Part shown: one piece after another, positions 2,810 through 33,920 of the stretch
Numbering within the stretch: position 1 is the stretch's first letter
Layout: every line of letters starts with the position of its first letter
Assembly (NCBI GenBank): GCA_950295325.1
Contig: OX485803.1
Coordinates: 7,748,001 to 7,812,000, forward strand
Source: Polytrichum commune
Taxonomy: Eukaryota > Streptophyta > Polytrichopsida > Polytrichales > Polytrichaceae
DNA length: 64,000 nt
Direction of reading: 5' to 3'
The notes under the pieces: model-generated
The model's input: only the letters and a program-made list of their open reading frames with translations
What the model was told of the DNA's origin: nothing
Databases searched by the model: none
Translations under genes and position numbers: made by a program

Positions 2810-5200
2810 AACAATTAGGATTGACAATTCAAAACTGGCAGAATATGAGGATATAGTTAGAAGAGCGCTTTGTTTTACAGAATTTATGTAGGTCTTTCCT
2901 AATGATCAACGCAGTCTGTGCTAATCCACCACATTTGTTCATGTCTGTGCACTTCATGAATTGTAAAGGACATTTTTGTCTCCACTATGTCTCTTATTGA
3001 ACGGTTCTCCTATTTTATAGTTTTGAGATTACATATTTCTGTTGCTTATCAACATTGATGAATTTCCCTCCTCCCCAGTTGTCATGCTCTGCAATTTGAC
3101 AGAAATGAGTTTTAGATGCCCAAGCATGTCTCATGAATTCACCAGTGAGGTTTGAATCTTCGTGGTGAAATACTCATGGTCACATATTTAAGTTCATATC
3201 TGACCATATTTAGGTTTACTTTTGAGTACCTCTTTTGTCTTTTCTTGACCTTGGTCTTGCACCTATCAGTCTTGCATCTATTCTTGCACCACCTTAGAAT
3301 TAGCTTCTTATTTGCAGGATAGCAATGCTCCGAAACAGATTGATGTTTGCAGAAGGTCACAAAGACTTGAGAGAGGAGGCAATTTGGGCAATACCTCAAA
3401 CAAATTTGCTCCAAAGGTGTCAAGTTCAATATGAGAGACACCCATCAACTGCACTTTTACCTCCTTTGGAAGAGGCATATGAACTCCAAATTTGGAAATT
3501 CAAATTCTCACATGCATGTATTCTACTTTCTATATGTATTTATATAGTCTGCCCTGTAAAACTGTTAACATTTCTGATTCAGAGCAAACATAAACCCCCA
3601 ATTGGAAATATTGAGTGTCTTAACACTTATAGAGGGCAGATTGTACTAGTTTGGGCATGTGCTGTGTTGCCATTTTGTACGCATGCGTGTGAAGTATTGT
3701 CCTGAGCCATCCCCACATTGTAGATGACTGCTTGTTTTGGAACTTTGCAATGATAATTGTGTCAATGTCCATGTGCCTTTGATGTTTGAATATTTTAGAA
3801 TGTATAGTACATACTAATCTAGGAGCTCATTTATCTCATTTCTGCCACGTCACAATTCCATTTCTGTCCGTCCGATTCATAACTTTTTCATGTGTGCCGT
3901 AGATGTTCGTTTTCAGCTTGTACATCGAGGATTCAGCTTGTAGATGTCCGTCCGATTAAATTTTATTTTCATGACTGCCGTCGATTTTGAGGTGAAACTT
4001 AACCGGAGCTTTTGGCGATGGATTCAAGGCGACGTTGAATTCAAGGCGTCGTTGCTTTCGTATTTCTGTTGAAGGAACGAAGGAAATGTTGGAGCGTGCA
4101 TCAATTCTTACCTCGATCGAACGAGTCCCAGCATTGTCATCCTGCTCCCCTGTCCACTTTGATTGCACGGATCCCCAAATTACTTGCTACTCCAACGACT
4201 TACATCGCCGAAATAGATCGAGTAGGAGGTGCGTCCAAACCCATTTCTTTCGTGAATCCGATCTCTCACCTGAAACCAAAATCTTAGCTGAGATGTTGCA
4301 TTTGGCACTACGGAATCCTCAGAAGCTATGGCGGCATCCACTCAATCACAAATCTCCTACTCAGAATGCGTGGGTGCGAGTACCGCCTCTGGAATGGGAT
4401 ACTGTCATTCGGATCACTGTGAGGGGTGGTGATGTGATTGGGTGGCTGGGGATTGATGTGCTCTCCACGTCTTGGGTCACTATAGGTTTCGTAGTTGTGG
4501 ACTTAATTTATTAGTCTCCGCTTCTATTTCAGAGAGTAATGTATAAGTCTTGTCGCTCTGTAGTGTCTCCCTGTGTGCGTCCTTACAGATGTGTGTTGAT
4601 AAAAGCTATATTTACAAGTAGGTATGGCTAGGGTTGAGAAAGAGTGAAGCTATGGTCCTGTAATTCTGGCCTGATGATTTTGCTCAAATTTGTCACGATG
4701 ACTACTATGCAGGAAGCTGGTGTGGTCTTTCCACATGCAGAAAGCTGCATTATTGGGGTGTGCTGAAGAATCCTTTTCGCTTCCATACATTGTTGAGATC
4801 GATTCTTTATTCCGGTCTCTTCCTCATGTGGGTGGACATGAATTCGCCGCCCATTCTTGCTGGTGGTAGGACTGGCTTTTAGAATATGGAAATGACCCTG
4901 TGATCTGATTGCATAAATCCAGAATGTAGGATAATATTATCAAGATTGTTCGTTGTGAAGTGGACCATCTGTGTAGCATTGTGCTGTACTTCGTGAATCC
5001 AGTGAAAGTTGTAGGGAAGTGCTGACACTCTTCATATTTACAATTTGGATCTGGAGTGCAGGCTTCGAAAGAAAATGCGGGGGAGTGATTATAGCAGACT
5101 ATTTGTGGTGTAAAGTGGGGATTAGGGCCGATCAAAGGAGGAGGACTTAGGCAGGCGGTGGAGATTATCAAGTGGGAGTTAGTCCCTACTACCCTAATTT
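2810..5200. other. No supported gene; short unassigned ORFs
   Basis: I see no convincing gene here. A candidate exon follows the acceptor TTTGCAG at about 3312-3318, reads KQIDVCRRSQRLERGG for a while, then meets a stop. The longest open frame, 4035-4514 (159 codons, plus strand), has no recognisable domain and is not supported by splice sites or by a second signal. A small inverted-repeat element sits at 3546-3643. Confidence 0.4.
3546..3643. repeat. Short MITE-like inverted repeat related to the Tigger-type MITE at 49 kb
   Basis: The left end reads AGTCTGCCCTGTAAAACTG followed by TTAAC. The right end is an imperfect reverse complement (AACACTTATAGAGGGCAGAT), and TA lies at both borders. 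The ends match the terminal pattern CAGTC..CCCTCTATAA..GTTAA of the 539-bp element at 49127-49665. At about 98 bp it would be a heavily deleted, imperfect family member. Confidence 0.45.
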
Positions 5201-5357
5201 AGTTTGCAGGAATGCAACGCTTAAATATGGCTGCGCTGTTGCCGCAAAACAAAGGTCGAAAGAAAGGGTCGAAAAAAATGTTATCAAAGTAGACCTTACA
5301 ATATCTGGTGGTGAGAATATCTGCTATATGAGCATGTGGTGGGGATGATTTTTGCAG

Positions 5358-5928
5358 GCGAATCCGACCCTGTCCATTGGACATCAATCCCAATTGTGTG
5401 TCCACATCTTCCAGCAACCAGGCTTACGGATTCCCTTGGGAAATTCCTCCCTCTAGCTCAAGTACGGCAACCAAGGTGAGCGGGCTCTTCTACAGATTTC
5501 CGTTTCCTCTTTGCAGGCCTTGGGAGTTGAGATGGCAGGAAATCCTCCAAGTCGCGGCATGAGTGTTTATTCACGCCTCGAACCTGTTCAAATGCAAGCT
5601 TATTGGTTTTACAGAGAATTGAGAGCGCCATACTTACAACACAAAAAAATGCACAGATCTTGAAGGACGAGGATCTTTCTGATGGTAAGCAAACCCTCAC
5701 TCTTTCTCTCACATACAAATACATTGAATTCCACAATATATTTGTTCTCCGGTGGATAAGTTGCTCCCTTTTTGTAGAGGAATCGTTGTTTCGCCTATAC
5801 ATGGAAGATATGTTGCTATATTGAAGTCAGACATTCACATGTATATTGTGCAGGTAAACGAAATGGCAGACTCTTAGTTGCCGAAGTAGACGGATTCTTA
5901 CTTCCTTCCAGAATCGGTTTTATTCAGG
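5358..5928 (+). pseudogene. DUF1499-domain gene fragment, three exons
   Basis: Exons 5358-5475, 5615-5684 and 5854-5928 have good splice sites and join in phase. The first reads CPLDINPNCVSTSSSNQAYG then FPWEIPP. The second reads RIESAILTTQKNAQILKDED. The third reads GRLLVAEVDGF. This order (CVSTSS, FPW.IP, a helix with TTQKNA, then LLAEVDG) is that of plant plastid-type DUF1499 proteins, whose function is unknown. Neither an N-terminal transit peptide nor the rest of the domain could be found, and the third exon runs into the 173-bp duplication that starts at 5901. I infer a truncated copy. It may be a captured fragment or the broken 5' part of a resident gene. Confidence 0.6.
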
Positions 5929-6073
5929 TTGATTGCAAAACATCTTCTTCTGTGATCGTTGTTGCATTGATTTGGTGGTTTTCGTTGAGTGATTGGTCAT
6001 TCATTGGAGCTTTTTGTATTCGTTGAGTTGAATTGAGTTGTAAGATCATAATAAATCAGTGTGAATCTTTTTC
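5901..6073 (+). repeat. 173-bp perfect direct repeat, copy 1
   Basis: Every base matches 19621-19793 by eye, in the same orientation and 13.7 kb away; similarity stops abruptly at both ends. Copy 1 begins inside the third DUF1499 exon (at CTTCCTTCCAG) and runs into the following intron-like sequence. Perfect identity, beside clearly decayed neighbours, implies a recent duplication or an assembly artefact. Confidence 0.9.
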
Positions 6074-6552
6074 TTCCTATGGTCATAATATCGTATGGTT
6101 GTGGTCATGATGGAATTGAACTTCCTCATCAAGTTTTTGGGTATAACCAGGTTTCGTTTTTGTTGGTGAATAATTGCCCTTTTAAATGTACCAGAGAAAA
6201 ATTATAGAAAGTTAATATACATATATTTTAATCCTATGCTCTTTTATTGTGTAAAAGTGAACTTGCAGAGTAGGAATTATGAAAAATTTGACTTTGAATT
6301 TGTCTGAGCTCACAAGTACATGATCGCTTTTCTCAAAAGACAGATCAGTCAATGGTTCCAATTTGTGAATGGAAAGTGAAAGGTAAGGAGAGTTCTTCCA
6401 GCTACATGCCCTTGGACCATTTTGTCATGATCTGAGAATTTGTTCTGCAGGATGATGTTTTCGCCCTACAATCTAATGCTCTTTTTTTTGGCTGTGTCAT
6501 ACCTTGAATTCCACGTATTTCGTTGAAGTCCCTACTTTGGGGTTTGTTTGGC

Positions 6553-6664
6553 CTATTTTACTTTATGATTCTATGCCATTGAAATCTTGTCAAACTATCC
6601 TCGAGTGAGTGCTGATGAGGTGATAGGTTGAATTGCTTGACAGGTGGTAAAATAACAGGGCCTC
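6553..6664 (+). repeat. Direct repeat of about 112 bp, copy 1
   Basis: The stretch starting CTATTTTACTTTATGATTC is nearly identical to 7108-7219, with about five mismatches (such as CTCGAG against CTCAAG). The two copies lie 555 bp apart between captured gene fragments. This is probably a local duplication formed while the Helitron's 5' part was assembled. Confidence 0.85.
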
Positions 6665-6905
6665 ACCGGTATCATAAAACTGATATGCAGGGTTGAGATA
6701 TTTTGAGGAGACTCCAGATTTCCCTTTCAAGTATAAGGTAAGCTTGGTGTTTGCAACAGGGTATGCAATCTATACTTTTTGCAGTTCCCTGATCAACTCA
6801 GCACGTCTTCAACTGAAGATGGCTGCTGATACAAACCAAATGTTTTTGTGGAAGGCATGAGCATTTGTTGATTACTCTTTTTGTTGTAAATTATTTCAGT
6901 TGCAG

Positions 6906-6991
6906 TGATGAAAGCAATTAGGGTGGTGAAGGCTCAAGCTGATCAAATCTTTAATCTCATAATGGATTATGGGTCGGAACGCCAACAATAA
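6906..6991 (+). pseudogene. START-domain (EDR2-like) gene fragment
   Basis: After the acceptor TTGCAG the frame reads MKAIRVVKAQADQIFNLIMD, then YGSERQQ and a stop (6989-6991). This resembles the beginning of the START lipid-binding domain in plant EDR2-like proteins (pattern V.GVV.A....IF.L.M....R..W). Only one exon is recognisable and it ends in a stop where the family continues. Two upstream exon-like pieces with splice sites (6691-6737 reading LRYFEETPDFPFKYK, and about 6780-6860 reading NSARLQLKMAADTNQMFLWK) may come from the same gene, but I cannot place them. Confidence 0.45.
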
Positions 6992-7107
6992 GCACTCACA
7001 ACTTTAGTTCCACTCTGCTATATTTGAAATGGAAGTTAGCACACTGTGAAAATGGTACCCCTTACATCTCCTCCAGTGTCAACATTCTTGAAATAGTCAC
7101 ACTGAGT

Positions 7108-7219
7108 CTATTTTACTTTATGATTCTATGCCATTGAAATCTTGTCAAACTATCCTCAAGTGAGTGCTGATGAGGTGATAGGTTGAATTGCCTGACAAGT
7201 GGTAAAATAACAGAGCCTT
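7108..7219 (+). repeat. Direct repeat of about 112 bp, copy 2
   Basis: Second copy of the 6553-6664 segment in the same orientation. It lies just upstream of the ARIADNE-like fragment. Confidence 0.85.
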
Positions 7220-7408
7220 ACTAATTTTGTGGGTCTTCAAAGGTGGTTGTGTTTTGCTTTTTTTTCCCATTTGCAGCATATTCATTAATACTAGGTTCTG
7301 ACCAGTTCATTGATAACATTATATAGGTACCTTGAATTGCTTGAAGTCTAGACTATTTGCGGTTCTTGTGGATGTATTATCAATAGTATTGATTATTTGA
7401 TATGATAG

Positions 7409-7536
7409 GTGAAGCGGAGGCTGGATTAGAGCGTCTTCACCAGTGTGCAGAAAAGGACTTGCAAACATTTTTTGAAGGGGACACTCCATTGAGCAGTTTC
7501 AATGACTTGTGAACAAAAGTTGCTGGCTTGATCAAG
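7409..7536 (+). pseudogene. ARIADNE-like RBR E3 ligase gene fragment
   Basis: After an acceptor (GATAG) the frame reads GEAEAGLERLHQCAEKDLQT, then FFEGDTPLSSFNDL, a TGA stop, and TKVAGL. This resembles the C-terminal helical region of plant ARIADNE ubiquitin ligases, where a LERLHQCAEKEL segment is followed by F.(D/E)FRTKLAGLTSVT. The RING and IBR domains are absent, the FNDLRTK position is a stop, and the later residues drift away. It is a single broken exon just ahead of the Helitron frame. The family call rests on remembered family pattern and should be checked by a protein search. Confidence 0.45.
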
Positions 7537-7786
7537 TGAGATACCGAAAGCCATGTCACATTGCTGTTTTTGAGAGTAAACCTCGATTTATATAGAACTG
7601 TGAACAAACATCCAATAGTTTTGGTAAGTCTAATTCTGTAACTATATGTAGTTGACAAATTATTTGGCTAAATGGCATCTCATTGAATGTCACAGTTTGC
7701 CTGCGATTCAAGTCATGACTTTGTGTTTGTGTTTGTGTTTCAAGTCATGATTTTTAGTTGACACCATAGCTCCACCAAAATTAACT

Positions 7787-10700
7787 ATGGGGTTCAAAAA
7801 AAAAGTGCATGAGAAACTAAGAATAAGACGTATGAAACGATTTCAACCATGGGATCACTATTGGCTTCATAGAAGTGATTTGCAATGTTCTTGGTTGAAA
7901 CAAACTAAATCATTTTTCAAAGATTTGCATTGCTGTGCAATTTGTGGTGTGACGAAGTTAAGTAACCGCAATAAGAAATACCGTTTCCTTCACAATACAT
8001 ATCTCGATGGGGTAGCACCAATGCAAGGATGTACCCCATACGGTACAACAAACACATACATTGCAAAACACACGACAAACGCCTCAGGGGACAAGATGAT
8101 TCTTTGTAATCAATGTCATTCAAATAGAAAGAATCCTCCTCATGCCCCTTATGTAGTGTACCGGCCATCAGCGTATATGAAGTCTATTGTCAAGTTGAAT
8201 CCTCTGTATGTGCAGTTGTTGTTGTTCATTGACATTGGTGTGCACATGCAATCTAAAGATTGAAGATTCAACACTGGCAAAATTGTTTCTGACAGTCTTC
8301 TTAATAGTCATTTATTTGGTTGGGTTGAGAACTGTGATGCATTCCAAACAATTGAGAATTTGGTATCATCTTTGACCCCATTGTTGTTTCAAAACCTGCA
8401 TACAAACCCATTTTTTCAAAAATACATGACGGTTTTTGAACAACCAGAAAAGAGCACGAGCATGTGTATTCTTACACCAGATGTGATTCAATCTATTATT
8501 GCCAACACTGGCACACAGTCGATGTCATTTCCAACCATGGACGTTCCTAGGGATGTGTACGATCTTGCACTCTTGTTTGACATGCGCACACAAACACAGC
8601 CTAGAAAATATGCCGATTTTTTCACAATAGGAAATGTCCATCTTCGAAATGGTTCGCGGTCTGATACTAGAGGGGAGCCTATCACATTCAGGAGAAATAT
8701 ATTGAATGTCCAATTGGAAGGCATGGCGCTTGAGAGTGTGTTATTTCTTTTTTTATTTCCATATGGACATGGAGCCTACGATGGTCGGACTATACTATCT
8801 GCATACCTGAAATATCGGATGACTACATTGTTCCCTCCTTTCACTCTATGCAAACCATATTTGCTATACATGTATGATATATGACAATCCGTGCAATTCT
8901 TGAAGAAAATTTCTCAGCAATGTTTGGAGAAAGATATCAAACAAACCCAACATGCACACCCGCATATGAATGAAGCTGAAGTATTGCAACACGTTACAAA
9001 ATATAGTCTTCCATCCTCTATTGAAGGCACTCCACGTTGGTACAAATCTCAACTAAAAGACTTACTCGCAATAGTTGACAAGTTTGGAATGCCTGACATG
9101 TTCCTTACATTAATAGCCGACGAAGCAAGCTCTCTCCGATGGGAAGATATTGCAAATATAGAACAAATAATCCAACAAATCGATAAGTCCATGATATGGA
9201 AAAATTGTCTTGTGGAATGTGCTTCCTTATTCCACTCACGCGTTCAAAAATTCCTTCATGATTACATACTGTTGGGACCTTGTATACTAGGACGTGTGAA
9301 AGAATACGTCCTTCGCTATGAAATACAATTTCGTGGTTCCTTGCATGCACACATAATGTTGTGGATAGAACATGCAGATTTGAAACGTGTTGCAAACGAA
9401 ATAACTGCAAGCGTTCATGCAGCATTTGACTCTACATCAGGCAATTTTATTGAGCCTACTGATACTGAGCAAAACACTTTGTTCAAAACAGTGATGAAAA
9501 AACAACTGCATACATGTACTTCACGATGCCATCACAGAAAAAGCCATGACACATGCAAATACGGGTTTCCTTTTCCACCGCATACAGAAGAGCAGACGAC
9601 GTACAATGTTGATACAAGAAGATGAGATTACTATAGACCCCGCAATGAAGACCGCAATGTTGTGCTATATCATGCAACATTTTTGCTACTTTGGGGTACA
9701 CATATCAATTTGCAAAGAGTTAATACAATTTATTGGTCGTACTACTTGCTGAAGTATGTGATGAAATCTGAGCCACATGGACCTATACAATTAGATAAAA
9801 CAAACGCTGAACGTTTGGGTCTACAAGGTGCTTCATATTCTCAACTGTAATTAATCTCCTCACTCATTATATCGAAACCAATTTCCCCTGCAGAAGCAGC
9901 ATTGGCTTGCCTTCACATCCCGGTAATCCAAAAAAACCGAATTGTGAAGTACATTGATTCTAATCCACCTATGCTACGAATAAAATTGGTTACCAAATCC
10001 AGGGTGCTTAGGTTCCATCCCATCGATGCATATTGCAACAGACCAATTGCTTTTGAGAGCATGACTTCTTTTCAGTATTTTGAAAGATTTGAAACTGACA
10101 GAATACAAAAACCGAACATGACATGCTATGGGGTCGACATGTTTGGATTCTATATGTACGAGATCACAAAGGTAACAAGGTTTACTGACTTCCATCACAC
10201 ACACAATACACAAGGTTTCTTCTTCAACATTCTCCTCCGTAACTTCACATTCAGAGATGAAAGACAACTATTGTCTGAGCGCAACACAAACAAGAACTAC
10301 CTCCTTGAATGTTATATTAGAGGTTTGCTTCCTGATGTCCAAGCAGTGCAAAATTATTTGTCACAGTATGCTCATCGAAACCTTATTAAGACTGAAAAAC
10401 ATACACAACTTTTAAATTGACTTTTGCAAGACTATCCATTCCTCGATCCATTAAACATTTCTAACAATGAAAATATTCCACACGAATTGACCCCTCCTTC
10501 ATTGCATCGCCTCAGTAGACCAAAAGACCATGTTTTTTATATTCAACTTTCAGACATGATGCTTACACCTGACCAACAACGTGTATTCCATGTCATTCTT
10601 CAAAATCCTACAGGGTTGCACGTTTTAACTGGAACACCTGGAAGTGGAAAAACATTTTTTGTTAAATATTTGGCTCTATACTTTCAAACACAAAATAAAC

Positions 10701-11850
10701 TTGTGTTGTTGTCTGCTACAACAAGCGTTGCAACTTTGAGGCTGTCATCAACTGCATCCACAGCACATACATTATTTCGTATTCCATCACGAGGTTACTT
10801 GTCACCACTGCCTGAGCCATCCACTGTACTAGAGCGTTTACATAGTGCAGACATAATTGTCATAGATGAAATGTCTATGATGACTAGCTATATGCTATGC
10901 ACGGTTGAGCATCGCCTCAAACAAGCATGTAGAGACACAATTACCAACACATTTTGCAACAAGCTTGTGTTGCTTGTCGGAGACCTTGCACAACTACCAG
11001 CAATATGTGTGTATGCTCCAAAAGCCCCAGATATTATTTGCAGATATTGCCACATTAGTTCCGCTCCATGTTGGGCCAGAGCACTGTAGTACAAACTACA
11101 AATATCAGTGCGTCACGCAACTGATCCAACTTACTTGCAGTTTCTAAACATCATACGAGATAGAGAACCAACAGAATCCGAAATTGAAGCCACATTGTCG
11201 ACATGCTTTGTTAACGAACTGGAGTTAACGGGCCACATTCATGCAGACACAACCATATTATGTTCTCATCGCCAGGATGTGATAATGTACAATGACATTG
11301 TGTTAAAAAAAAAATTTGATCAGTCGGAAACAATGCGTGTAAACTTGGACAACAATGTAGTGCCAGAAGACAATATGCAACATTGGCTTGACGACCCGCA
11401 CTTTGACCACATTCATCTTGTTGCTGTGGGTGCACTCGTTATGTTCATTGAAATGTAAGCCTTGCAAAAGGTGCAGTAAACGGAGCTACTGCAACTGTAA
11501 AAGGCATCAATGTGAACAGCGCACGAAAGGTTACCAGCATTGCCGTCAAAGTCAAAAACACTTCTAAGCACATGCTCCTGAAACATACTACCTTCCAACA
11601 TGTGTATACATTTGGTAAAAAGTTTTACAAAAGTGGATTTCCAATTGTGCTTGCATACGCAATGACTGGCCATAAGTCACAAGGCGCCACTATTTCCACA
11701 AATGTGGTGGTAGACATCCACAATGCCTTTGCCCCAGGGCTGACTTATGTAATGTTGTCAAGGGTTACGAACCGACAAAATCTCAAAATCAAAGGACGAT
11801 TGTCACCATCCCACTTTGTTCCATGTTATCTATCATACACCGCTTCTGAA
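7787..11850 (+). pseudogene. Helitron RepHel (HUH endonuclease plus Pif1-type helicase), decayed
   Basis: RepHel proteins nick and unwind DNA for rolling-circle transposition in the nucleus. One frame runs from 7787 to about 11455, broken by in-frame stops at 8261 (TGA), 8882 (TGA), 9623 (TGA), 9848 (TAA), 10418 (TGA) and 11087 (TAG). A one-base loss near 11453 shifts it, and it continues to about 11850. A cysteine pair (CCAIC) and CNQC near the start suggest the N-terminal zinc finger. The HUH motif is SLHAHIMLW (His codons 9344 and 9350). The Tyr motif is YWSYYLLKYVMKSEP at about 9731-9775. The helicase has Walker A GTPGSGKT (10631-10654), Walker B IVIDEMSMM, LVGDLAQLPAI and GHKSQGAT (about 11668). 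Length, about 1350 codons, is close to the family norm. It cannot make a full protein as it stands. The frame continues into a NOP14 exon. Confidence 0.9.
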
Positions 11851-14530
11851 AATCAAAAACAAGCAGAGGAGTTAGCTAAAGAAGAACTTGCTCGTCTTGA
11901 AAAACTTGAGGTATGTACAATGGCTCCCTATTTTTGTTGATTTATTTACTCTGCTGGTGTTCCTTGCATTGAGTTTACTGCAGTTGGAAGCATTGATGTA
12001 GAATGGTGCACAGCACAAATGTTTGTTTTCTATGATTACATCTTTGAAATTTTCTTAACTTATATAAATTGTGGCTAAGATTCTTGTCACTTTGATGCAG
12101 AAAAAAAGGAAGCAGCGGATGCTGGGTGTAGAGTCAGATGAGGATGAAGGTGGCAGTGATGAAGAAGAAACAGAGCGGCATAAGAAAAAAGAAAAAAAAA
12201 AGACTTCTCAGGTGATGATCTTGGTGAGAATTTTGTGATGGAGGACGAGTATCAAGAGAATTGGTTGATGGAAGGCCCATCCAGGACCTTGAGACTGCAG
12301 TGCAAAGGATTCGGAAGTGTAATGCCATAAGTCTTGCAGCTGAGAACCGAAGAAAGATGCAGGTTTGTGGTTGCTCTCCAATGTCCAGTGCCCATAAATA
12401 TCTACAGTTTTCCTTCTTTCTTTGAAGGCCTGATCCCACATGGTTAGCCTTGAGTTCTAAGCAATTGTTTGGATGAGGCTCACTTTGCAGCTTTCAATCA
12501 TTTTAAGCCTTGCAGACTTGCAGACATCTAGTACCTAATGTCAAGGTGTCGGCCCTGACATTAGGTATTTTTTTTGAGTATTTTTTTCCTTGCATGCTGA
12601 TGGCGTGTCTGAAAGTTAAATAATCAAGGTCTTTTTACAGGTTTTGAGGCCAGCAAGGAGATTTTGTCCAGAAGCTCTCAATTTTTTGCAAGCACTTCTA
12701 CTATCAGCATTGCCAAAGGCAAACCGTTCTAATGGTGTAGCTCAGCTTGCTATTGTAAGTCTTCTGCATATAACTTTACTGCTTTCTGTGGGTGTTATTG
12801 TCCAAGAATTTTGCGCTTATGAAGCTTCACTTCATAAAAACCATGAGTTTTTTTGGGCGTGTGCATTTTTAAGACCTTGGTGGAGCAAAATGCATGCTAC
12901 ACTATGTGCTCATTGCTCCATGTTCAACTACACACAGATTGTGAAGGCCTATATCCTGAGAAATGTGCCTTACCCTCACTTGCTGATTAGTGTACTGGTT
13001 AATATGAATGAGGATTTTTGACATTACGTCTCAGAAAATTATATCCATTTTGAAGTCTGGAAGCAGAGAATGAGGTGTCTGATTTACTTCCAGGTTAGCT
13101 TTCTGATGTGCATGGTTGCAGCTCTCAAACTCAAAAATGAAGACTCGGGATGTGCAACCTCTAGATTTTGTGAACTTAGTTACAGAAGATGCTTCATCAC
13201 CCACATTTGAGTCTGATTCTTTCAAGTAAGATTCAAAGCTATTTTCACTTTTTTGTATCTCAATATTTGAACAATGAAAATATAGCTCTAGTGTTCTCTG
13301 CACTTAAAGATCTTCCTTTTAATTCTTTAGTAGTGTATGGTTGTCAGAATAGTCCTGCAATGTTCCTGCATGTGAACATGGAATGCCATGTTTAGGAAGT
13401 AGGAAAGGTATCCAATCTCTCATTGTTGATCTCTGGTGTTGTTTTGTGATTGGGCCTGCAGAGCTGGAATGCTTTGTAATGTGTTGCAGACTGTACGTGG
13501 ATTTGCTGATATTTACAAAGACCTTATGTCATTTCCCGAGACTTTCAACCCCTTCATATCTTTGTTACAAATGTTGAAAAGGGATGTTTCACTTCCAGAG
13601 AGTCTTTTGGCTTGAAATAAAGAAGTAACTGAGAGTCTAGAAGAGAAGCTGAAAGAACATGAGAGGTTGCGGCAACCTTTGCGCATGCGAATGAGCAAAC
13701 CTGTACCCATCAAAATGTACAACCCAGTGTTTGAAGACAAGTAAGTACATCATCTCTTTAGACAACTCTCGGTGTAGTCTGACTTTTTTGTTGTGCTTGT
13801 CTGTCTTTTCAAATACTTCAAGTAAATTCTATGGTTGTTCTGGTACATAAGGTAGACCGGTGTTGATCCAACATAGCAATAATGTGAGCACCTATATTGG
13901 AGTGTATGTAGTTAGAATGGACACCAAAAAGGCTTCATGTACCTTAAAGAGATTGGACTATGTGCTCAAAATTTGTTATCCATTCTGTGCTCAATAGTCA
14001 ACATAATTGGTGGTAGATATATATGACCATTTAATGAGCTTGAGAAATCAAGAAATACGAATATCACATCTTGATATTCATATGAGCTCTGAAAATAATG
14101 AGGGAATTGGCTATGGGCATGATTTGGATTTTTAATCATCTTGTACTAATTTTGTGTTTCATATCCTATGAGAAGTAGGTGCATTAAGAAAAGTGTCTCA
14201 AGGCCCACTTACCTGATGTGAATATATCTGATTTGTACTTCTTTGGGGTGGGGTGTTTACAGCTTTGTTAAAGGTAGGGACTATGATCCCGATCGTGAGA
14301 GAGCAGAAATGAAGAAGCTCAAAAAGCAATTGAAGAGAGAAGCCAAGGGTGCAGCACGTGAGCTTCGGAAAGACAATTATTTCATAGCAGATGTAAAGGC
14401 CGGTGAAAAAGCTGTGGCACAACAGGAACGAGATGAAAAGTATCGTAAAGCTATGTCCTTCTTAGACCAACAAGAGTCCGCCTTCAAATCTGGACAACTT
14501 GGCAAAGGAAAGAAGAGGAAAAAACGTTAG
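11850..14530 (+). pseudogene. NOP14: NOP14 C-terminal half, captured and broken
   Basis: NOP14 is a nucleolar factor for 18S rRNA maturation and small-subunit assembly. Exons seen are: about 11850-11910 (AEELAKEELARLEKLE), 12101 to about 12360 (RMLGVESDEDEGG, GDDLGENFVMEDE, RIRKCNAISLAAENRRKMQ), 12641-12754 (RFCPEALNFLQALLLSALPK), 13122-13225 (VQPLDFVNLV), 13490-13740 (MSFPETFNPFISLLQMLK, KPVPIKMYNPVFED) and 14263-14530 (DYDPDRERAEMKKLKKQLKR to KSGQLGKGKKRKKR). The defects are a frameshift in the A-run near 12190, another near 12280, a TGA inside the 13490-13740 exon after SLPESLLA, and the loss of the central exons between RRKMQ and RFCPEA. The N-terminal half is absent. The first exon is fused in frame to the Helitron helicase. 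The last exon is intact, so the copy is fairly young. Confidence 0.85.
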
Positions 14531-15680
14531 ATCAGCCTTTAAATCTCACGGGTACGTGTCATATGGGATCTGGCTATACTTCTCCCCTGGTTGAACTGCA
14601 ATTTCTCCATCCACTGTATGATGGGGTTGCTTAATAGCGGGATATGCCAAAGGTCCGAGGGGAATTTACAAAGAGCACACAGATAGCTTGGATGTTTGCC
14701 CTTCATTCCTAAACACTGTCCTATTAGTGCTCTATGTTAGCAACCTCAACATTTCTGAGACGAGGCATTCTTTGAAAATTGAGATATAGCTTCAGTGCAT
14801 CATATGCATTTCTATCTAGCACATTTCATGTGTTTGTGGTAATTTTGTAATGGGATGTATTGCTTGGGCATCAAGAAGTGGTGACAGTTTTACATGGACA
14901 GCTCAAGTCAAACTTGTATTTGACCAATGACTGATGCGATTAGTGAGATATGTTTACAAGTTCGTCCTAGGCTACATGTCTACACACTTTTGTCAGTGAA
15001 TGTAGGCACCACTGTTTCCACACAATTTTCACACAATGTTCATTCTTTCCACTCTTCAATGGAGCATATTCTCTTGGTTTGGTGATCTTGAGTGATTGCA
15101 AAATAAACATCTATAATACACATGCAGAATTGACATGCAAACTTTGTCAAAGTCATGCAAATCTGGCAGCAAGGTCAAGTTCTCCACTATTTTCACCGTG
15201 TACTTCAACTTCCTTGTCTGTAATGTGTGTTGCAAACATAGTGGATGCAGTTTTTAGAAAAGTACAAACTTACTTGACTAAATTTGGTCTTCTGAGATCA
15301 CTCTGGTGTAATGAAAGAGAAGGAGGTCTGGCACAAACTTGCTCATTATGACCATGCCGATGATAGCATACCAGATCCACCACAACGTCTGTTTGAAATT
15401 TCTGGAAAAGTTGAAATATGGTACCAACATGAATCTCATGAACCAAATTGATCCAAATTGCAATTCCTTCCAAGAATTTTGGCCAGCATAGTTGTAGTTA
15501 ACTTGGGTTATCTGTGTGTCTGTGAATGAGACATAGAAGGCTTTGTATCTTGTGAAAACTGCAGATGGTGAGTTCAGTTAGGACTGGGAGTCTTTCTTTC
15601 ATAGTGGGTTACGAGTTCGAGAGAACTTGATAATAGACTGGACGGTGGTGTCAGTCACAAAGCAGGCACTGAGAGTTCCG
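14531..15680. other. No gene seen between the NOP14 fragment and the TATA-equipped unit
   Basis: Only short frames with stops in all directions occur here. No domain, splice-bordered exon or clear repeat was recognised. If the Helitron ends after NOP14, its 3' terminus (a CTRR end with a short GC hairpin) should lie in this stretch, but I could not pick one out. Confidence 0.4.
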
Positions 15681-15687
15681 CTTCCAC

Positions 15688-15695
15688 TATATAAA
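15688..15695 (+). promoter_or_regulatory. TATA box of the 16 kb unit
   Basis: TATATAAA in the context CCACTATATAAAGAGTG is a strong plant core-promoter match. It lies about 370 bp before the first plausible ATG (16065). The intervening sequence has candidate splice sites (an acceptor TTCATGCAG just before the ATG), so a leader intron is likely. Confidence 0.5.
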
Positions 15696-16064
15696 GAGTG
15701 CTGCCTAGTATTGTCCTTCATTATGTCTATATTCCTGAGGCTTCTCGTCATTGATTAAGAGTGCATGTCATTCTCTCCTCCTCTGCAGCCGCAAGCGGCA
15801 AGTTTCGTCTTTGCCTCTGCTTTCACCATTTTCAAACAGCATCCGAAAGTCCGAACTTTCATCTTCTGTAAATCAGCACTGTACGTTACGTTTCATTCAC
15901 CATGTTTTATCTTGCAGTTTTGTAGTGAATTCTTGTTGATTGCATAGCTTGACGTTACCAAGTTATTCATGAATGGAATCCATTTGCCCAATTGTTTCAT
16001 GGTTTACGTTATTTCAAGTTCTCTAGTAATTATACCTTTCATGCAGTTCAAACTCCTCATATCA

Positions 16065-16937
16065 ATGGCTCCTATCAACTACGCAAGCCTGTTAATAAAA
16101 CTAAAGGCTGATTTGCCGGAGTCAGAGCCAGAGCCCAAGAAAAGACGTCGCTCCTCCACAACCTCTTTTTATCCCACAGAGGCACAAAATCGCCTGTTGG
16201 ATGTTTGCGGTTATAAAGATTTCACGAATCCGCCAGCTTTTGATACCATCAAAGAAGCCAATGCATTTGTCACTAAATATGCAGACAACAAGAAAGCATT
16301 CAAGGACACATATGGCTCAGAGCCATGTCCAAGTGAATACTCCATCTTCAATATTAATCTCTAATTACTTGCACCATGACCCGCATTCAACTAACGACTT
16401 GCTCGCCTCATAACTACTAAAGTTTCAAAAAATACTAATATTCCCATTTGTAATTCACATATATGTTTATGCATGTATTGTGTTAATATGTACATATGAA
16501 TGCCACGATTCTTTTGTTGTTCCCTATGCACATGTTTTTTACAAACATAGACAACTTCATACGCTTCTGAATCAGGTCATGTGAAGATCCTCTTGGACTT
16601 ATTTCAAATTGACTATGCGGGCGACATAGACAAACTCACAGTTTGGAAGGCCAAATCGATGCTCAAGACGGTTGTACCGGGAGATTTGGGAACACACCAA
16701 ATGTTCCGATTCTACCATGAGTTTCGTATCACCGACCCTGCAGTTTGGTCTGATTTATCGTTTAAACAAGCAACGGCCTTGTTGGAGGCACTGAGTTCTG
16801 AATGTGAAGCTGCTGCTGGACTCGAAGCCCCTGCACCCAATCCCGTTGTGCCCAATACTATTGTTGGTATCACCAACGTTCCTTCATCTTCCCGTCCAAA
16901 AAACGGGAAGCGTGCCGCTTCAACGTCTACACCATAA
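16065..16937 (+). CDS. Unrecognised 209-aa protein, two exons
   Basis: Exons 16065-16332 and 16576-16937 join through a GT-AG intron in phase (SEPCPS, then HVKILLDLF), giving 209 aa with no internal stop. Near residue 20-30 is a basic cluster (EPEPKKRRRSS) that could be a nuclear localisation signal. The middle has aromatic and charged blocks (YPTEAQNRLLDVCGYKDF, KYADNKKAFKDTYG, FRFYHEFRITDPAVW). The C-terminus is low-complexity, rich in Ala, Pro and Ser. I know no family with this pattern. Its TATA box, splice logic and open frame contrast with the decayed neighbours, so it may be active. It could be an accessory gene of a mobile element, given the nuclease-like ORF just downstream, or a lineage-specific gene. 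The alternative is chance open frames, which the phase-matched splice makes less likely. Confidence 0.5.
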
Positions 16938-17040
16938 CTTGCAGGTACTCTACGTATTCCCATTTGGTTAGATATTTCCTTTTCTATTATAAAAATATCT
17001 CTACAATCTAATTTCTAAACTGCGCTCTCCTTTCTACTAG

Positions 17041-17326
17041 GGCCAACGGACGGGTCTACGTGGGGCAAACGATATCACCGCATGCAAGATACCTACAACA
17101 TGCCCGCTCCCCACCCCTCAATATGAGAAAGGACGCTAGGACTTACCAACCGTTTCTAGCTCACTTTCAGCTGCAGACAGTCTTTACAACGGCAAGGAAG
17201 TACCTTGCCAATAGGAAGGAGAAACAGTTGATACGTATGTATCAATCTCAACCAAATAAATCCTACAATATCTTAAGGGGTACACCATCGGCGGACCCTT
17301 TGTATTGGATATTGAAGAGAAAATAA
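17041..17326 (+). CDS. GIY-YIG-like nuclease domain, partial (missing the GIY strand)
   Basis: After a pyrimidine tract and acceptor (CTTTCTACTAG) an open frame reads NGRVYVGQTISPHARYLQHA, later KQLIRMYQSQPNKSYNILRG, and ends PLYWILKRK. This resembles the second part of a GIY-YIG nuclease: the YIG strand as YVGQT, the following Arg and His (R..H), a late Glu within KEKQLI, and the YN...G turn. The GIY strand should lie in an upstream exon. The stop of the 209-aa frame (16935-16937) precedes, so a direct in-frame join to it is not available as drawn. GIY-YIG domains cut DNA in homing enzymes, repair proteins and Penelope-like elements. No reverse transcriptase is visible nearby. Assignment is by motif only. 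Confidence 0.4.
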
Positions 17327-17664
17327 TAAATATATGTTTCCATTCCAATATGGAATTGCTGAGTATGCATCTCTCTGTCGTGTATTTGGACGTATCGTAA
17401 ATCTGAATTCAAGTACAAATTCTATAAACATGATATTGTATTGATGATATGCAAAGCATAACACCTTAGTGTTGACTTTTCAATGGTGAAAAATCCATAA
17501 GTGTCACTACAAACTAGGATTTTTATGTATAGTTCTTTAAGAAATTCAAAAAAATCAAAATTCATACATAATGAATTCACACATTTCTCTCGACTTCTTA
17601 TTGCTTCTTATTGCTCTCTTTTGTCTTCTCTTTTGCTTGTGAGGGATGCCGCCACATCCAAGAA

Positions 17665-19037
17665 GTCAAGAAGGGCTAGGGTGAACCAACACCTACACTC
17701 GTACCTTCGGGGGATGAAGGCCTCGCGGATGACACTGAAAACGTCATCCTTCTTTATGGGAAAGCCCCCCGACATTTTTTCTGCACCCGACCGAAAACTG
17801 CTGCCCGCCCGCCCGATTTCGAAAAAACTAGTGTACTTGCATTTTTGAAGGCTACTTGTCCACAAATCCCATATTGAGTGCACTTCATTTTCAAGGTCTC
17901 CAATCCAATATATATGTTCACTTCCATTGAGTAATAAGCAATTGACTAGATTTCATTTTCAAAGTGAAACTGTCAATAAAGCATGCAATTAACTTGGAAG
18001 TCAAAAACATTACAAAATCCTCATTAATACTGAGGAGGTTATAATTTTTGTCACTTACAATTGAAGGGACCTTTTCATTCTAAAATGAAACTAAAATTCA
18101 TGATTTTTTTTTTAATTTTATAAATATAATATAGTTAATACCTTCTACTATCACAAAGTTTCCATATGCATTTAAACTAGTTAAGTAAGATTGAATGCAA
18201 CTAAGTCTAATATATTTTGATTAATCCTAATTAAACCCAATTAAATCAGAAAATATGCTTTCCAAATTAATTAAGCCTAATTAATCATAAATTATATTTA
18301 CTGGAGTTAATTCCATTTAAATCATGACTAATTCCAGTAAGTACATTTTATAATTAATTAGGCTTAATTAATTTGGTACGCATATTTTCTGATTTAATTG
18401 GGCTTGAATACGATTCATTAGGATTAACCAGAAATTATTAGACTTAGTTGCATTCAATCTTACTTTACTAGTTTAAATGCGTATGAAACTTTGTGATTGT
18501 AGAAGGTATTAAATATATAATATTATAGTATAGTATACACTATATTAAAAATGTATTCTACTAGAATACATTATATTATATTATAAATAAATAAATAAAT
18601 CATGAATTTTAGTTTCATTTTAGAATGACAAGGTCCCTTTCAATTGTAAGTGACAAAAATTATAACCTCAATATTAATGAGGATTTTGTAATGTTTTTGA
18701 CTTCCAAGTTAATTGCATGCTTTATTGACGGTTTCACTTTGAAAATGAAATCTAGTCAATTGCTTATTTATTCAATGGAAGTGAACATATATATTGGATT
18801 GGAGACCTTGAAAATGAAGTGCACTCAATATGGGATTTGTGGACAAGTAGCCTTCAAAAATGCAAGTACACTAGTTTTTTCGAAATCAGGCGGGCGGGCA
18901 GCAGTTTTCGGTCAGGTGTAGAAAAAATGTCGGGGGGCTTTCCCATAAAGAAGGATGACGTTTTCAGTGTCATCCGCAAGGCCTTCATCCCCCGAAGGTA
19001 CGAGTGTAGGTGCTGGTTCACCCTAGCCGTCAAGAAG
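17665..19037. mobile_element. Foldback Mutator-like element with 9-bp target duplication
   Basis: The element spans 17674-19028 (1355 bp). Its ends are GGCTAGGGTGAACC and the reverse complement, and the inverted arms are about 670 bp each, nearly the whole length, meeting in an AT-rich centre near 18351. It is flanked by perfect 9-bp direct repeats GTCAAGAAG at 17665-17673 and 19029-19037. A 9-bp duplication with long terminal repeats is the signature of Mutator-like elements. No transposase is encoded; the ORFs in the arms are mirror images of each other. It must be moved by a transposase from elsewhere. Arm identity is high (a few mismatches per 100 bp near the ends), so insertion is fairly recent. 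Confidence 0.92.
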
Positions 19038-19620
19038 AAGGTGAGATTAGGGAAATATGAGATTACCGTCAATATGAGGTAAGTCTCCGACCTTGCTGTT
19101 GATTTTTTTACCCGTCTTTGCACCTAATTAGCGACCAAATTCGAGCATTGTGGGCATGTAGAATTATCGTTTGCCCTTAAGAAGTGCGACAATTTCGTCC
19201 TTGTGGATTTGATCTGCTTAGAAGCCCGAAGCGATGGAATTGGTCGGCATCGAGGTTGTAGGGATTATATTCACACATGCGACGACATTAACGTAATCGG
19301 CAATGCGTGCATCTTGGTCCTCGATCTTCTTCTATTGCGTCAACCCATTCGATCTGTTGTGTACAACTATTGGGCTTCAAAATTTTGGCAGAGCTAAAGT
19401 TGATGCATTGCAAACATAAAAAGTGCAGCTTTTTATCTCGCAAAACCCAGATACACGAACCGAGACCCAATTTTTTCCACATGCGATGTAACCAGGGAAA
19501 TTATGCAATTGTTCGTGTGTAAACAATTACACCGGTGGTTTTCCTACCTTGCCATTCTCGCCTGCTTCAAGTCACCCACATTGCTGCTACAACAGCTGAA
19601 TTGTAATTGCTCATTATTTT
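19038..19620. other. Possible host exon split by the Mutator-like element; otherwise nothing seen
   Basis: If the element and one copy of the 9-bp duplication are removed, the flanks join as a short open frame reading CRHIQEVKKKVRLGKYEITV, then NM, ending at a donor (ATGAG|GTAAGT, exon end 19079). I do not recognise the peptide. The rest of the stretch holds short frames only, up to the second 173-bp repeat. Confidence 0.3.
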
Positions 19621-19793
19621 CTTCCTTCCAGAATCGGTTTTATTCAGGTTGATTGCAAAACATCTTCTTCTGTGATCGTTGTTGCATTGATTTGGTGGTT
19701 TTCGTTGAGTGATTGGTCATTCATTGGAGCTTTTTGTATTCGTTGAGTTGAATTGAGTTGTAAGATCATAATAAATCAGTGTGAATCTTTTTC
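19621..19793 (+). repeat. 173-bp perfect direct repeat, copy 2
   Basis: Identical to 5901-6073. The preceding sequence (GCTCATTATTTT) is unlike the DUF1499 exon that precedes copy 1, and similarity ends again at 19794. Copy 2 therefore lacks the coding part to its left. Confidence 0.9.
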
Positions 19794-22700
19794 ATCCGGT
19801 TTTGGCCCAATTTTATTTGCATGGGTAAAGAGCCAACATATTCATGAATGTAGCCTAATTGCACATACCAGTTTTAGTGAAAGTAAGCATACTTCCACAT
19901 GTGGTGATGGTGCTACACTGTTCATCGTAATTAGTGTCACTTACTCTGGAGTTACACCATGTTTTTACTTTTTTACTTGTGATGTAAGATTTCACCAAGT
20001 AAAGTTGATTATGTTCTATAACCCTAAACAACCTATTTGACCTAGTATGTTGGCAAATAATGATATATATACAAAATAGTAATAGCCTTGTATAGTTCCA
20101 AATAGTATGTGACACAAAATGTCATAAAGGATGTGGTGAGGCATCTTCATTGGCAATGACTATGTTACAATGCACTCCGAGATATAGTAGATTAGGCACA
20201 TTCTCTTGTGGGGTCGTCTTTGTGCATCAAAACTGCAATACCCATATGCACACTTCCAAACACAACTTAATTGACATTATTGCAGGCCATCTTATAATGG
20301 CTTACATTATATCAATCATCCCTATGTTAGGTGTGGGCCAGATTTCAATGCCAAGATCAAAAATCAAACCATTCCATATTGTTTCGTAGTTGTTTTGATG
20401 ATTCTTTTGGTGTAAGCATCACTACCTATTTCCCAAACAAACTCTCTGCTTTGCCAACTTCCTTGCGGACTTCTTCTCCCACCAGCGGTGGGCCTTTGGC
20501 CCCTAGCGGCTCGTTGAGTCAAGGTGGAATTAACATGGGTTGTAGACCCCTTGCCTTCCCATAAGTCTGCATGAAGACTTCTGACCAACACATTGAATAT
20601 GAAATATAGGACAAAAGTAGCACCAAAAAAAGTACTCATTTTTTTATAGAAAAAATTAATTTGGCCCACATTAGTATTCTAGGATTTTAGTGTGGGGTTG
20701 AAGATTAATGTGGTGCACACTAATTCTCATTATGAGAATCAGTGTGGGCTCTAGAAAATGACTTTGGCCCATAATAGGACTATTTGGTGTAGTTGCCACA
20801 ACTTGGAACTTTAACTTTGCAATGGTTGGATCTTAAATTTTGTTGTAATGAAGTGAATTTTTTTCCCACATCTTTGTTGTGGTGTGGGACAAACTTTGGG
20901 AAATATGAACATTGTTAACAAGTTTGTAAATCACTAACTAGTTTACCATGGTGGTACTTCAACTAATTACACAATGTGGTTTTGCATTTCACTACCTTCT
21001 TAGATCAAAGTTCATCCAACATAACTTTCATTAGATAGGTGTGACTATTGTATGGTGCTCACTACTTGGTTCAACTTTTTTGATGCTGAACTATAATTTC
21101 CACAATTTAGATGGGTTTCAAGCAATGTAAAACTACATGTGGCAAAATTTCATGAATGATTATTTGTTAGAAGCCGAAACAGTTTGTAGGCAATCTATGA
21201 TTTTAAAAGAAAACTTCTTTCTAGTTTATGAAGGTAAAGACCTTTGCCGAATACCTTCATGACTGGCATGGGTTACCATTTGTCAATGTTGCATAATTTC
21301 AAATATTGTGGGCCACACTAATGGTGATATATAGTACAAAAACTAACACATGGAAACATCATATTAATGATGGATATTTACCCATTTTTGAAATTACCAA
21401 ATAATTGTGAATGTATTTGAAAACCACCAAATTAACATCCTTGAATGAACTTATTCTTAAGAGGTTGGGGATAGAGGGTGAAACACAAGAAACAAATCAT
21501 GAGTTTCACAAAGTTTATACTCTTGTGTAGGCTTACCTCTCCCATAAAATAAAATAAAATAAAATATACTAAACATCGACAACTTTAGGCTGATGATGTG
21601 ATTGAGGGCCCATTCATCGTATCGATGGCAAAGGGTCAACCCCGTTATTGGCTTTTCTGCTGTAAAAAACATTGTCGATTGGTAATGTTGGCTCTTATTG
21701 GCATACATTGTTTGCAACATGCTTGTCCCGTGTTAGGACCTACAAATTAACACACGACGACAAAAGAATTCCTCCTATTATCGGCCTCATTAGAGTTTAA
21801 TCCAAAGTTTGGTTTTTTTTTGTTGGGAAGATGTAAATTGAGGCTGAGAACTTCTTGGGAGCCTTGAGATTGGTGGGTGTAACTCCCATGCATATGTCTA
21901 TAGCTAGTATTTGTTGGAACCGGAGAATTTCCAACTACCTTAAAGACAAGATGCATCCTAAACTTTGATTTTTACTCCCAAGCTTTTAAAGATAATTCTA
22001 ATGAACTACACAAGCACATGAATAATTAGCGTTTAATAGGAAAGTTCACGAAGGTAATGCCCCCTTCCAACCTGACTTTAGTTAATACCCAAAGTATTTC
22101 CTAAAAACCAAGTAAAGCTCCCTTGGTTATAGCGGAGGCATCCAACTATCCCAATGCACCTACAAGAACTTGTCTGAAGATTTTCAAGTAGGTTTTAGTT
22201 AAGTAGCTTTTACACATGTTCATTGTTTTGTCTACCAAGTAATGAATGTTGGGTAGTTTTTGTCCCATCCCCAAATGCCTTACTACTCAACTATCTTACC
22301 ATTGGTTTTTGTTAATGGAGCTCCTCGTACCCTCATAGCTAAGACTAAAAAGCAACCAATCACAAGGGCGGGAGGCGACACTTTTAAAGCTCCTATATTC
22401 TTGCCTCATGTTTAGGTACTGATGGAAGGGTCGGTCCTTGAGGCTTAAAACCTCCACTTTTAAGCCATGCCACATCATTTGCCAACTAGGCTCGGCACTA
22501 GATAATGTGGATGGTGTGAAGGCCGGGTTGTTAGAACCAACTTTTAGTCTTTAGCTAAAGTCAGGTGGGAACGGGCATAAGCATTCTACCATCATAGATG
22601 GGTGCTGTGTGGGTTTTAGGTTACGGGGTCCCCAAATCTTCTAATTCCACTGATTCCCAGCTCCACATCTGCCAATTTGCAAGATTCTAATGTGGATAAG

Positions 22701-32876: not shown

Positions 32877-32936
32877 GCTACAGTGACGAGGAGGTCGCTA
32901 CAGTGACGAGGAGGTCGCTACAGCAACGAGGAGGTC
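32877..32936 (+). repeat. Three 20-bp tandem repeats just before the hAT ORF
   Basis: The unit GCTACAGTGACGAGGAGGTC occurs at 32877-32896 and 32897-32916. A third copy with two changes lies at 32917-32936, ending exactly at the first ATG of the ORF (32937). They lie inside the hAT element and may be regulatory or a replication-slippage scar at the deletion point. Confidence 0.9.
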
Positions 32937-33920
32937 ATGGAGAGATTGGTATTTTGTATGCCTGCAATTTTAGAAATTTGGGAGGTTGAAGAACCCACAT
33001 GGTACAAGGATCTAACTTCTCTTCAGTTCCAATTTTTCATTCACATGCTAGCTGATATATTATCAGAGTTGAATAAGGTCAATCGCAAGTTTCAGTTTGA
33101 TCTTGTAGATATCACTAGCATAGCTTCTACGATTGATGTAACAATCAGCTTGTTTCGTAGACACTATCTGGGTGTAAGTTTTGGCCTGACAACCAAATAC
33201 CTAGGAAAGTTTCTCCGCGAGGTGGTACCCAATGGGCAGATATTGTATATTGATAGTTTTGGGTGTGAAAAAATGCATATCTTGCATTATGATTCCATGC
33301 CCGAGTGTGACGTAGGAGGTTCATTGGAGGCATGCATCATGTTGGGGAGGCAGTATGTGCAGAAGATCATCGATCCACTCAATGATCGATTTCTTGACTT
33401 GTCCATTTTCAATGCGGCCCGGCTTTTTAGCCCGAAGCACTATCCCGTAGATGAATTGGACAGAGGGACATTAACGGAACAATGGTTGAACCGGTTGGTG
33501 ACACATTTCCGTTGGAGCGATGACCTTGTTAATCAATGCAATGCGGAATTGCTAGAATTCGTGGAGATGTTATGTTCCGTTTGTGAACGCCGAAGTATGC
33601 AAGAAGCTTGGGTTTTTTGTGGCAATGACCGGGAGTTCATGATTAATTGGCCAACTATGATGTCGCTATGGCAAGCCATACTTGTGATCCCAACTAGCAC
33701 TGCTGTTTGTGAGCGTGGTTTTTCAAAGCAAAATTGGGTTAAGAGTGAAAGGAGAACTAGACTCAACCTTGACACACTGGATGCTTTAATGAGGGTTAGT
33801 CTAAATGGGTTAGGAGTTGAATTCATGGATTGGGATAGTATTTTTGAATCTTGGAAAATTGGCACAAGAACCAACAAGCGTAGGGCATTATCACTAGAAG
33901 AGGTGGAGTTAGATGGTTGA
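32937..33920 (+). CDS. hAT transposase, C-terminal part (327 aa)
   Basis: The 327-aa frame is uninterrupted. Its C-terminal 90 residues hold the hAT dimerisation domain: WPTMMSLWQAILVIPTSTAV, then CERGFSKQNWVKSERRTRLN, then LDTLDALMRVSLNG. The upstream part (LTSLQFQFFIHMLADILSEL, then LNDRFLDLSIFNAARLFSPK) fits the end of the RNase-H-like catalytic region in the DUF4371/ZNF862-type hAT subgroup. The N-terminal zinc finger and most catalytic acids are missing, since whole proteins have about 600-700 residues. It is therefore unlikely to transpose, but it could still dimerise with a full-length relative. The intact frame inside a decayed copia indicates a younger insertion. Confidence 0.85.
   Translation: MERLVFCMPAILEIWEVEEPTWYKDLTSLQFQFFIHMLADILSELNKVNRKFQFDLVDITSIASTIDVTISLFRRHYLGVSFGLTTKYLGKFLREVVPNGQILYIDSFGCEKMHILHYDSMPECDVGGSLEACIMLGRQYVQKIIDPLNDRFLDLSIFNAARLFSPKHYPVDELDRGTLTEQWLNRLVTHFRWSDDLVNQCNAELLEFVEMLCSVCERRSMQEAWVFCGNDREFMINWPTMMSLWQAILVIPTSTAVCERGFSKQNWVKSERRTRLNLDTLDALMRVSLNGLGVEFMDWDSIFESWKIGTRTNKRRALSLEEVELDG

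Follow-up and report, generated by a model that had tools for sequence, protein, structure and literature searches.

Capture of host genes inside Helitrons is a known phenomenon, and the locus described here is one more clean example. In maize and other plants the captured fragments (transduplications) are intron-bearing copies of a living gene, in sense with the gene of the element, and maize Helitrons give chimeric and alternatively spliced transcripts, as related in passages of PMC4528327. The filler-DNA captures of Hel1 elements in Spodoptera, in the passages of PMC6544945 that deal with them, lie internal to the element, a position that excludes end bypass, and their joins share 2-13 bp; end bypass, in which a Helitron is read past its 3' end into host DNA, is itself a known model of capture (parts of PMC6544945 and PMC6431247). 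Also among the closest known systems are Helitron2, as defined by Bao and Jurka (PMC3627910), and the bat Helitron Helraiser (PDB 7lcc).

The locus lies in a stretch of 64,000 nucleotides of the Polytrichum commune genome, hereafter the window (C1:7748001-7812000); the genome searched comprised 408 Mb in 64 contigs, and its 58 matches to the chlorophyll a/b-binding family show a photosynthetic eukaryote. A reading of the letters of the window (the sequence-only reading) had proposed that a Helitron helicase reads directly into a captured exon of NOP14 and is spliced to the next one. Indeed, the frame 11452-11940 is open and contains the helicase motifs GHKSQGAT and RLSPSHFVPC together with the NOP14 segment AEELAKEELARLEKLE, and both proposed splice sites, a GT donor after 11910 and an AG acceptor before 12101, are present. 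We searched the genome with window 11800-12360 and obtained 15 matches in all, one of them the query itself. The left part, 11800-11852 (in some matches from 11801), matched 12 other places, none of them covering 11853 onward, and the right part, 11853-12360, matched C7 only, in two pieces of one locus. Since the match sets of the two parts split exactly there, the breakpoint lies at 11852|11853, and alignment to the intact NOP14 locus, the check that had been proposed for it, fixed it at the same position. The same junction was also looked for in other Helitron copies and was found once only among the 15 matches. The helicase-to-NOP14 junction is thereby confirmed as real and exact.

Seven of the 12 helicase-end matches were fetched and read, as was the C7 locus. 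All seven end the native helicase with K-L-S-TAG, the TAG falling within four codons of the breakpoint. These codons have been replaced in the window, together with the family sequence that follows them (1591 bases in L008); in two other copies the variable sequence behind the stop of RepHel, the gene of Rep and helicase, measures about 1.6 kb. Just after its helicase stop, L008 carries a weak match to a MYND finger (5657-5914; 20.3 bits, under the cut-off of 22.7). Pfam searches with ten pieces, taken from the native and from the replaced regions, returned only this match, a GIY-YIG match also below cut-off and one chance-level hit. The MYND match, below its cut-off, suggests that the interval after the helicase stop may have taken up host DNA before.

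The parent of the captured piece is a gene on C7, which we fetched with its surroundings (C7:37634600-37644500, 9.9 kb). Pfam Nop14 was matched in nine exon pieces of this locus, stops were absent from all nine, and alignment found no helicase match in the 9.9 kb. A search of solved structures with a joined pair of parent exons found none, so that the identity of the gene as NOP14 rests on Pfam. The captured piece is 3.45 kb long and keeps its introns (Table 1). Its 5' join shares no bases between donor and acceptor, and its 3' join shares GG (15305-15306). Helitron family sequence resumes from 15305, and the fragment is thus bounded on both sides by Helitron. The parent on C7, the two joins and the Helitron flanks bear out the proposal of a NOP14 capture. 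The contrary case, a helicase merely inserted beside an intact NOP14, is excluded, because the intact gene is on C7 without a helicase and the fragment in the window is flanked by Helitron. Unlike the captures of maize and other plants, the join here lies inside the end of RepHel and removes its stop, and the element keeps RepHel.

Table 1. Features of the Helitron and of its captured NOP14 piece, in window positions
Feature	Position	Strand	Basis or remark
Whole decayed Helitron, 3' end CTCGTT at 20515	3844..20515	+	Homology to three full elements, terminal matches
Segment absent from elements E1-E3	4070..7219	+	Pieces recur in other elements without helicase
RepHel (Rep and helicase), decayed	7751..11852	+	Domain matches; stops, then frame change
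5' capture junction	11852..11853	+	Genome matches and alignments; native gene has K-L-S-stop here
Captured NOP14 piece in sense: 3' half including introns, plus 3' flank	11853..15304	+	96-98% identity to C7:37634600-37644500
First captured exon (part), ends AEELAKEELARLEKLE	11858..11910	+	In helicase frame through a 1-base insertion
Second captured exon up to TGA 12236-12238	12101..12238	+	2-base insertion near 12190
Deletion of ~0.44 kb of parent exon, most of acidic tract lost	12258..12259	+	Alignment to parent
TGA in later NOP14 exon, common to second element	13613..13615	+	Exon pieces and alignment
Insertion in captured intron, absent from parent, common to second element	13855..14190	+	Alignment
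Helitron sequence after capture	15305..17673	+	Alignment to family
Accessory gene: exons a 16065-16332, b 16576-16944, c 17041-17323 (putative GIY-YIG)	16065..17323	+	Limits by eye
Candidate slip site A AAA AAC	16898-16904	+	Zero-frame stop 16935-16937
Inverted-repeat element with 9-base target duplication, inside Helitron	17674..19028	.	Inverted repeat; second element continuous there
3' part common to other elements; ends CTTCTTCTC, hairpin (predicted), CTCGTT	19112..20515	+	Alignments, ends, fold

The Rep (HUH) domain and the PIF1-type helicase of the Helitron superfamily are both present in the element, being matched in separate pieces of the window (Helitron_like_N, 5.5e-23; PIF1, 1.8e-19). 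The stretch RGSLHAHI near 9330-9355, read by eye, we take to be the HUH-like one. The helicase part is related to Helraiser (chain 7lcc_A, E 7.2e-9), from which this element differs in that its ends are not TC/CTRR and its RepHel is decayed: in-frame stops end at 8263 (this first one begins at 8261), 8884, 9625, 9850, 10420 and 11089, and a frame change follows. RepHel was broken in all eight copies read (that of the window and seven others); since the genome holds 86 further partial matches, we do not claim that an intact RepHel is absent. The first 51 bases of the family are missing from the window copy (window 3793-3843), the 5' terminal pattern of the family had 0 matches within the window, and with those 51 bases gone the copy is probably immobile now.

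The segment that E1-E3 lack is shuffled among several elements in differing orders (C5:1069509-1074184, L021; C3:24733133-24734410, L020), and no Pfam family over cut-off was found in the pieces of it that were tried. The inserted inverted-repeat element is about 1.36 kb long, and its 9-base duplication is of a size that recalls Mutator-like elements. Elsewhere in the window, an open frame of 337 residues (32907-33920) looks by eye like the end of a hAT transposase.

By its ends the family resembles Helitron2. All 26 of the 3' ends read are CTCGTT; at the 5' end a T stands before CGAG in 20 of the 21 read and before TGAG in the other one, and terminal repeats are present at both ends (GAGAAGAAG at the 5' end, CTTCTTCTC at the 3' end). 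A 5' T and short asymmetric terminal repeats are common to this family and the Helitron2 group, as the latter is described in parts of PMC3627910. Other features agree with that description less well. Among six 3' ends folded, CTTCTTCTC stands directly before a predicted hairpin in three (window, N2 and C5x), whereas this arrangement is missing from E1-E3; the 5' repeat is unpaired in the predicted fold, which in all five ends pairs other bases, although a CGAGA/TCTCG pairing can be written by eye; and a putative GIY-YIG gene is present. The joined flanks of E1 matched across the join at no fewer than 41 places (41 of 41 among the matches listed), and this empty site read GTT in all eight places fetched. 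Because the empty sites of E1 read GTT, insertion is into T/T without target duplication, a statement about that one element and not about the copy in the window. The joined flanks of E2, E3, the second NOP14-bearing element (see below) and C5x gave no match among the matches listed (the best 40 of 2683), so that the lack of target duplication typical of the Helitron superfamily was found for E1 only. Assignment to canonical Helitron1, whose elements start with TC, end in CTRR and go in between an A and a T, was rejected, being opposed by the CTCGTT ends, the 5' T and the GTT target.

The frame runs on across the junction because the native helicase end was replaced and because the captured first exon has, in the alignment, one extra base relative to the C7 parent. 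A functional chimera would be conceivable, in which splicing joins the transcript of RepHel to exons of NOP14 whose basic and acidic tails take the product to the nucleolus or nucleus. It could draw on the open frame and the preserved donor and acceptor, on the basic stretches that follow the proposed splice and on the precedent of the maize transcripts (passages of PMC4528327). However, the six stops and the frame change lie upstream; the frame joined over 11910|12101 ends at TGA 12236-12238, 45 residues past the splice, because of the 2-base insertion; most of the acidic tract is gone; and the later part of NOP14 is missing or stopped, the window lacking, further on, about 1.0 kb that includes coding sequence in the parent. 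In addition, the junction occurs once among the 15 matches, and the element is without its 5' terminal bases. No continuous frame passes through transposase and host exons, and we consider the chimera highly improbable.

A second element, at C1:7907934-7915496 (L018, L019), allowed us to follow the capture over time. It lies about 0.15 Mb away, has the 5' and 3' ends of the family, and is shorter, with no helicase and hence no junction. It carries sequence like that of window 13009-15416 (98.1%) and shares with the window the 3' join, a 111-bp deletion, the later TGA and the intron insertion; beyond its ends, its flanks gave no match to the first 40 kb of the window. Since the deletion, the stop and the insertion are common to both, the captured piece travelled with the element, and the capture has moved in this way at least once. 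In the 1976 columns that could be compared between the parent and the two captures, 56 changes set the parent apart from both captures, 7 are found in the window only and 19 in the second copy only; the 56 shared changes mean that the capture took place before the two elements separated. Since their separation, 10 of 626 exon positions and 16 of 1350 non-exon positions changed, small numbers that leave aside the junction exon, which the second copy does not have; exons, therefore, changed no slower than introns, and selection on the fused frame was not seen. Between the parent and the capture in the window, 24 of 1047 exon positions differ, against 70 of 2067 elsewhere. This lower exon divergence is explicable by constraint on the parent only; the capture, too, may have been constrained in the time before the two copies separated.

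Of the transposase-host fusion that the sequence-only reading had suggested here, the part that holds is a frame literally running into NOP14; a working fusion with a targeting part finds no support. The gain of nucleolar or nuclear targeting is made unlikely by the upstream stops and frame change, by the early end of the frame after the splice and the deletion of most of the acidic tract, by the TGA further down that the second element shares, and by exons that changed no slower than non-exon sequence after the captures parted. A working fusion protein from the junction frame is very unlikely, and what appears to be one is more probably an accident, already dead, than a gene newly made.

Our preferred reading, to which we give a probability of about 0.92, is that a Helitron2-like element took up the 3.45-kb NOP14 piece internally, probably through filler repair, and then moved, the open frame being a by-product. 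The piece replaced the last codons of RepHel, its stop and the variable sequence that follows; a break inside the Helitron would have been repaired with NOP14 DNA as filler. The capture was then carried by the element, the copy 0.15 Mb away containing part of it, and the open frame across the junction arises from the loss of the native stop together with the 1-base insertion. The filler route is likely because the piece has internal Helitron sequence on either side and shares 0 and 2 bases at its joins; since the 5' join shares none, we infer it rather than observe it. Captured DNA is internal to the element here as in the Hel1 captures of Spodoptera (passages of PMC6544945), from which this case differs in the shorter identity at its joins, its plant host and its Helitron2-like ends.

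Under end bypass, instead, the 3' end of the Helitron would have been read through into NOP14, a new 3' end being gained later. The fragment does lie downstream of the helicase, as this established model would have it, but under it host DNA should reach as far as the new end, and here internal sequence of the element itself (15305-17600, with the accessory gene) follows the fragment before the 3' end is reached; we hold bypass to be no more probable than the chimera. Still less credit can be given to a short transcript from the last helicase segment that would yield a small regulator peptide, encoded within 11452 to 12235 and at most 198 residues long: the 198-residue frame is open over the proposed splice and would add a basic stretch of NOP14 to a helicase tail, yet no conservation accompanies it, its junction is in one place and a signal of selection is absent. 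Nesting of a Helitron in a NOP14 pseudogene, or a misjoin in the assembly, found no support here, although nesting is common in such regions, and is just as improbable as the peptide, since the piece replaces native bases and is not split by the element, sits between matching Helitron flanks and has a 3' join that recurs in the second element.

Beyond the filler capture that we favour, the element carries an accessory gene, which is also present in L066-L095, E1-E3 and N2. Pfam gave a weak GIY-YIG match at window 17012-17323. The score of exon c alone, 20.9 bits in the window, is under the cut-off of 22.6, and the same exon exceeds the cut-off in five of five divergent copies. With a segment in the -1 frame added, the window copy scores 30.7 bits instead of 20.9, L070 48.4 instead of 35.1 and L066 42.6 instead of 26.4. 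VYTITCR, the domain's first strand, is found in this -1 frame at the end of the preceding exon, directly after a heptamer A AAA AAC that is in phase with the zero frame, and in copies read as intact a zero-frame stop comes within 3-13 codons. We read 35 of the 69 genome matches of the exon and left out two that do not have it (L073 and L076). The heptamer, as A AAA AA(C/T), is kept in 29 of the remaining 33 copies, which are related and not independent (L072, L074, L083 and L091 have the exon without it). The codon before the heptamer varies (CCA, TCA, ACA), its last A being constant; codon use alone favours A to some degree, AAA making up 87 of 136 lysines and A standing in the third base of 173 of 566 comparable codons.

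The 69 matches form 54 clusters, 20 of which are within 12 kb of a RepHel match (0.17 expected). In 6 of 15 codon comparisons dN/dS was 0.08-0.37, and the other nine were saturated. Against the structure database the GIY-YIG exon had a best E of 0.026, a weak and unrelated match taken as chance, and no relative with a solved structure was found. From its sequence, the accessory gene seems to yield a GIY-YIG nuclease through a -1 frameshift at A AAA AA(C/T); alternative splicing may instead give access to the GIY-YIG frame. Retroelements join Gag to Pol by frameshifting, a scheme to which that of the accessory gene may be likened. We speculate that, by cutting the element or its targets, a nuclease of this kind could favour internal breaks at which host DNA like that of NOP14 enters. 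We would put at even odds the existence of a two-gene Helitron group that couples RepHel with a frameshift-extended GIY-YIG nuclease, possibly favouring capture breaks.

No mention of GIY-YIG in a Helitron was found in the literature passages on both, taken from part of the papers that name the two terms together and including PMC3627910, PMC6431247 and the Helitron passages of PMC6585611, a scope that does not imply that such a gene is unpublished. In the passages of PMC6875170 that concern Helitrons and ribosomal frameshifting, the frameshift belongs to LTR elements. A literature search for 'Hecatron' with 'Helitron' gave no match.

The capture is unusually well resolved, since a single assembly contains the parent gene, the two breakpoints, the unaltered helicase end and another copy that has lesions in common with the first, and it is dated before the spread of one daughter element. 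It also shows how losing a stop codon can produce what looks like a fusion of transposase and host protein although no gene results, which calls for caution in surveys of such fusions. The GIY-YIG gene, a side find, would, if true, matter more than the capture itself, as a nuclease gene expressed by frameshifting would be relevant to the way Helitrons cut DNA and to the ease with which they acquire host genes.
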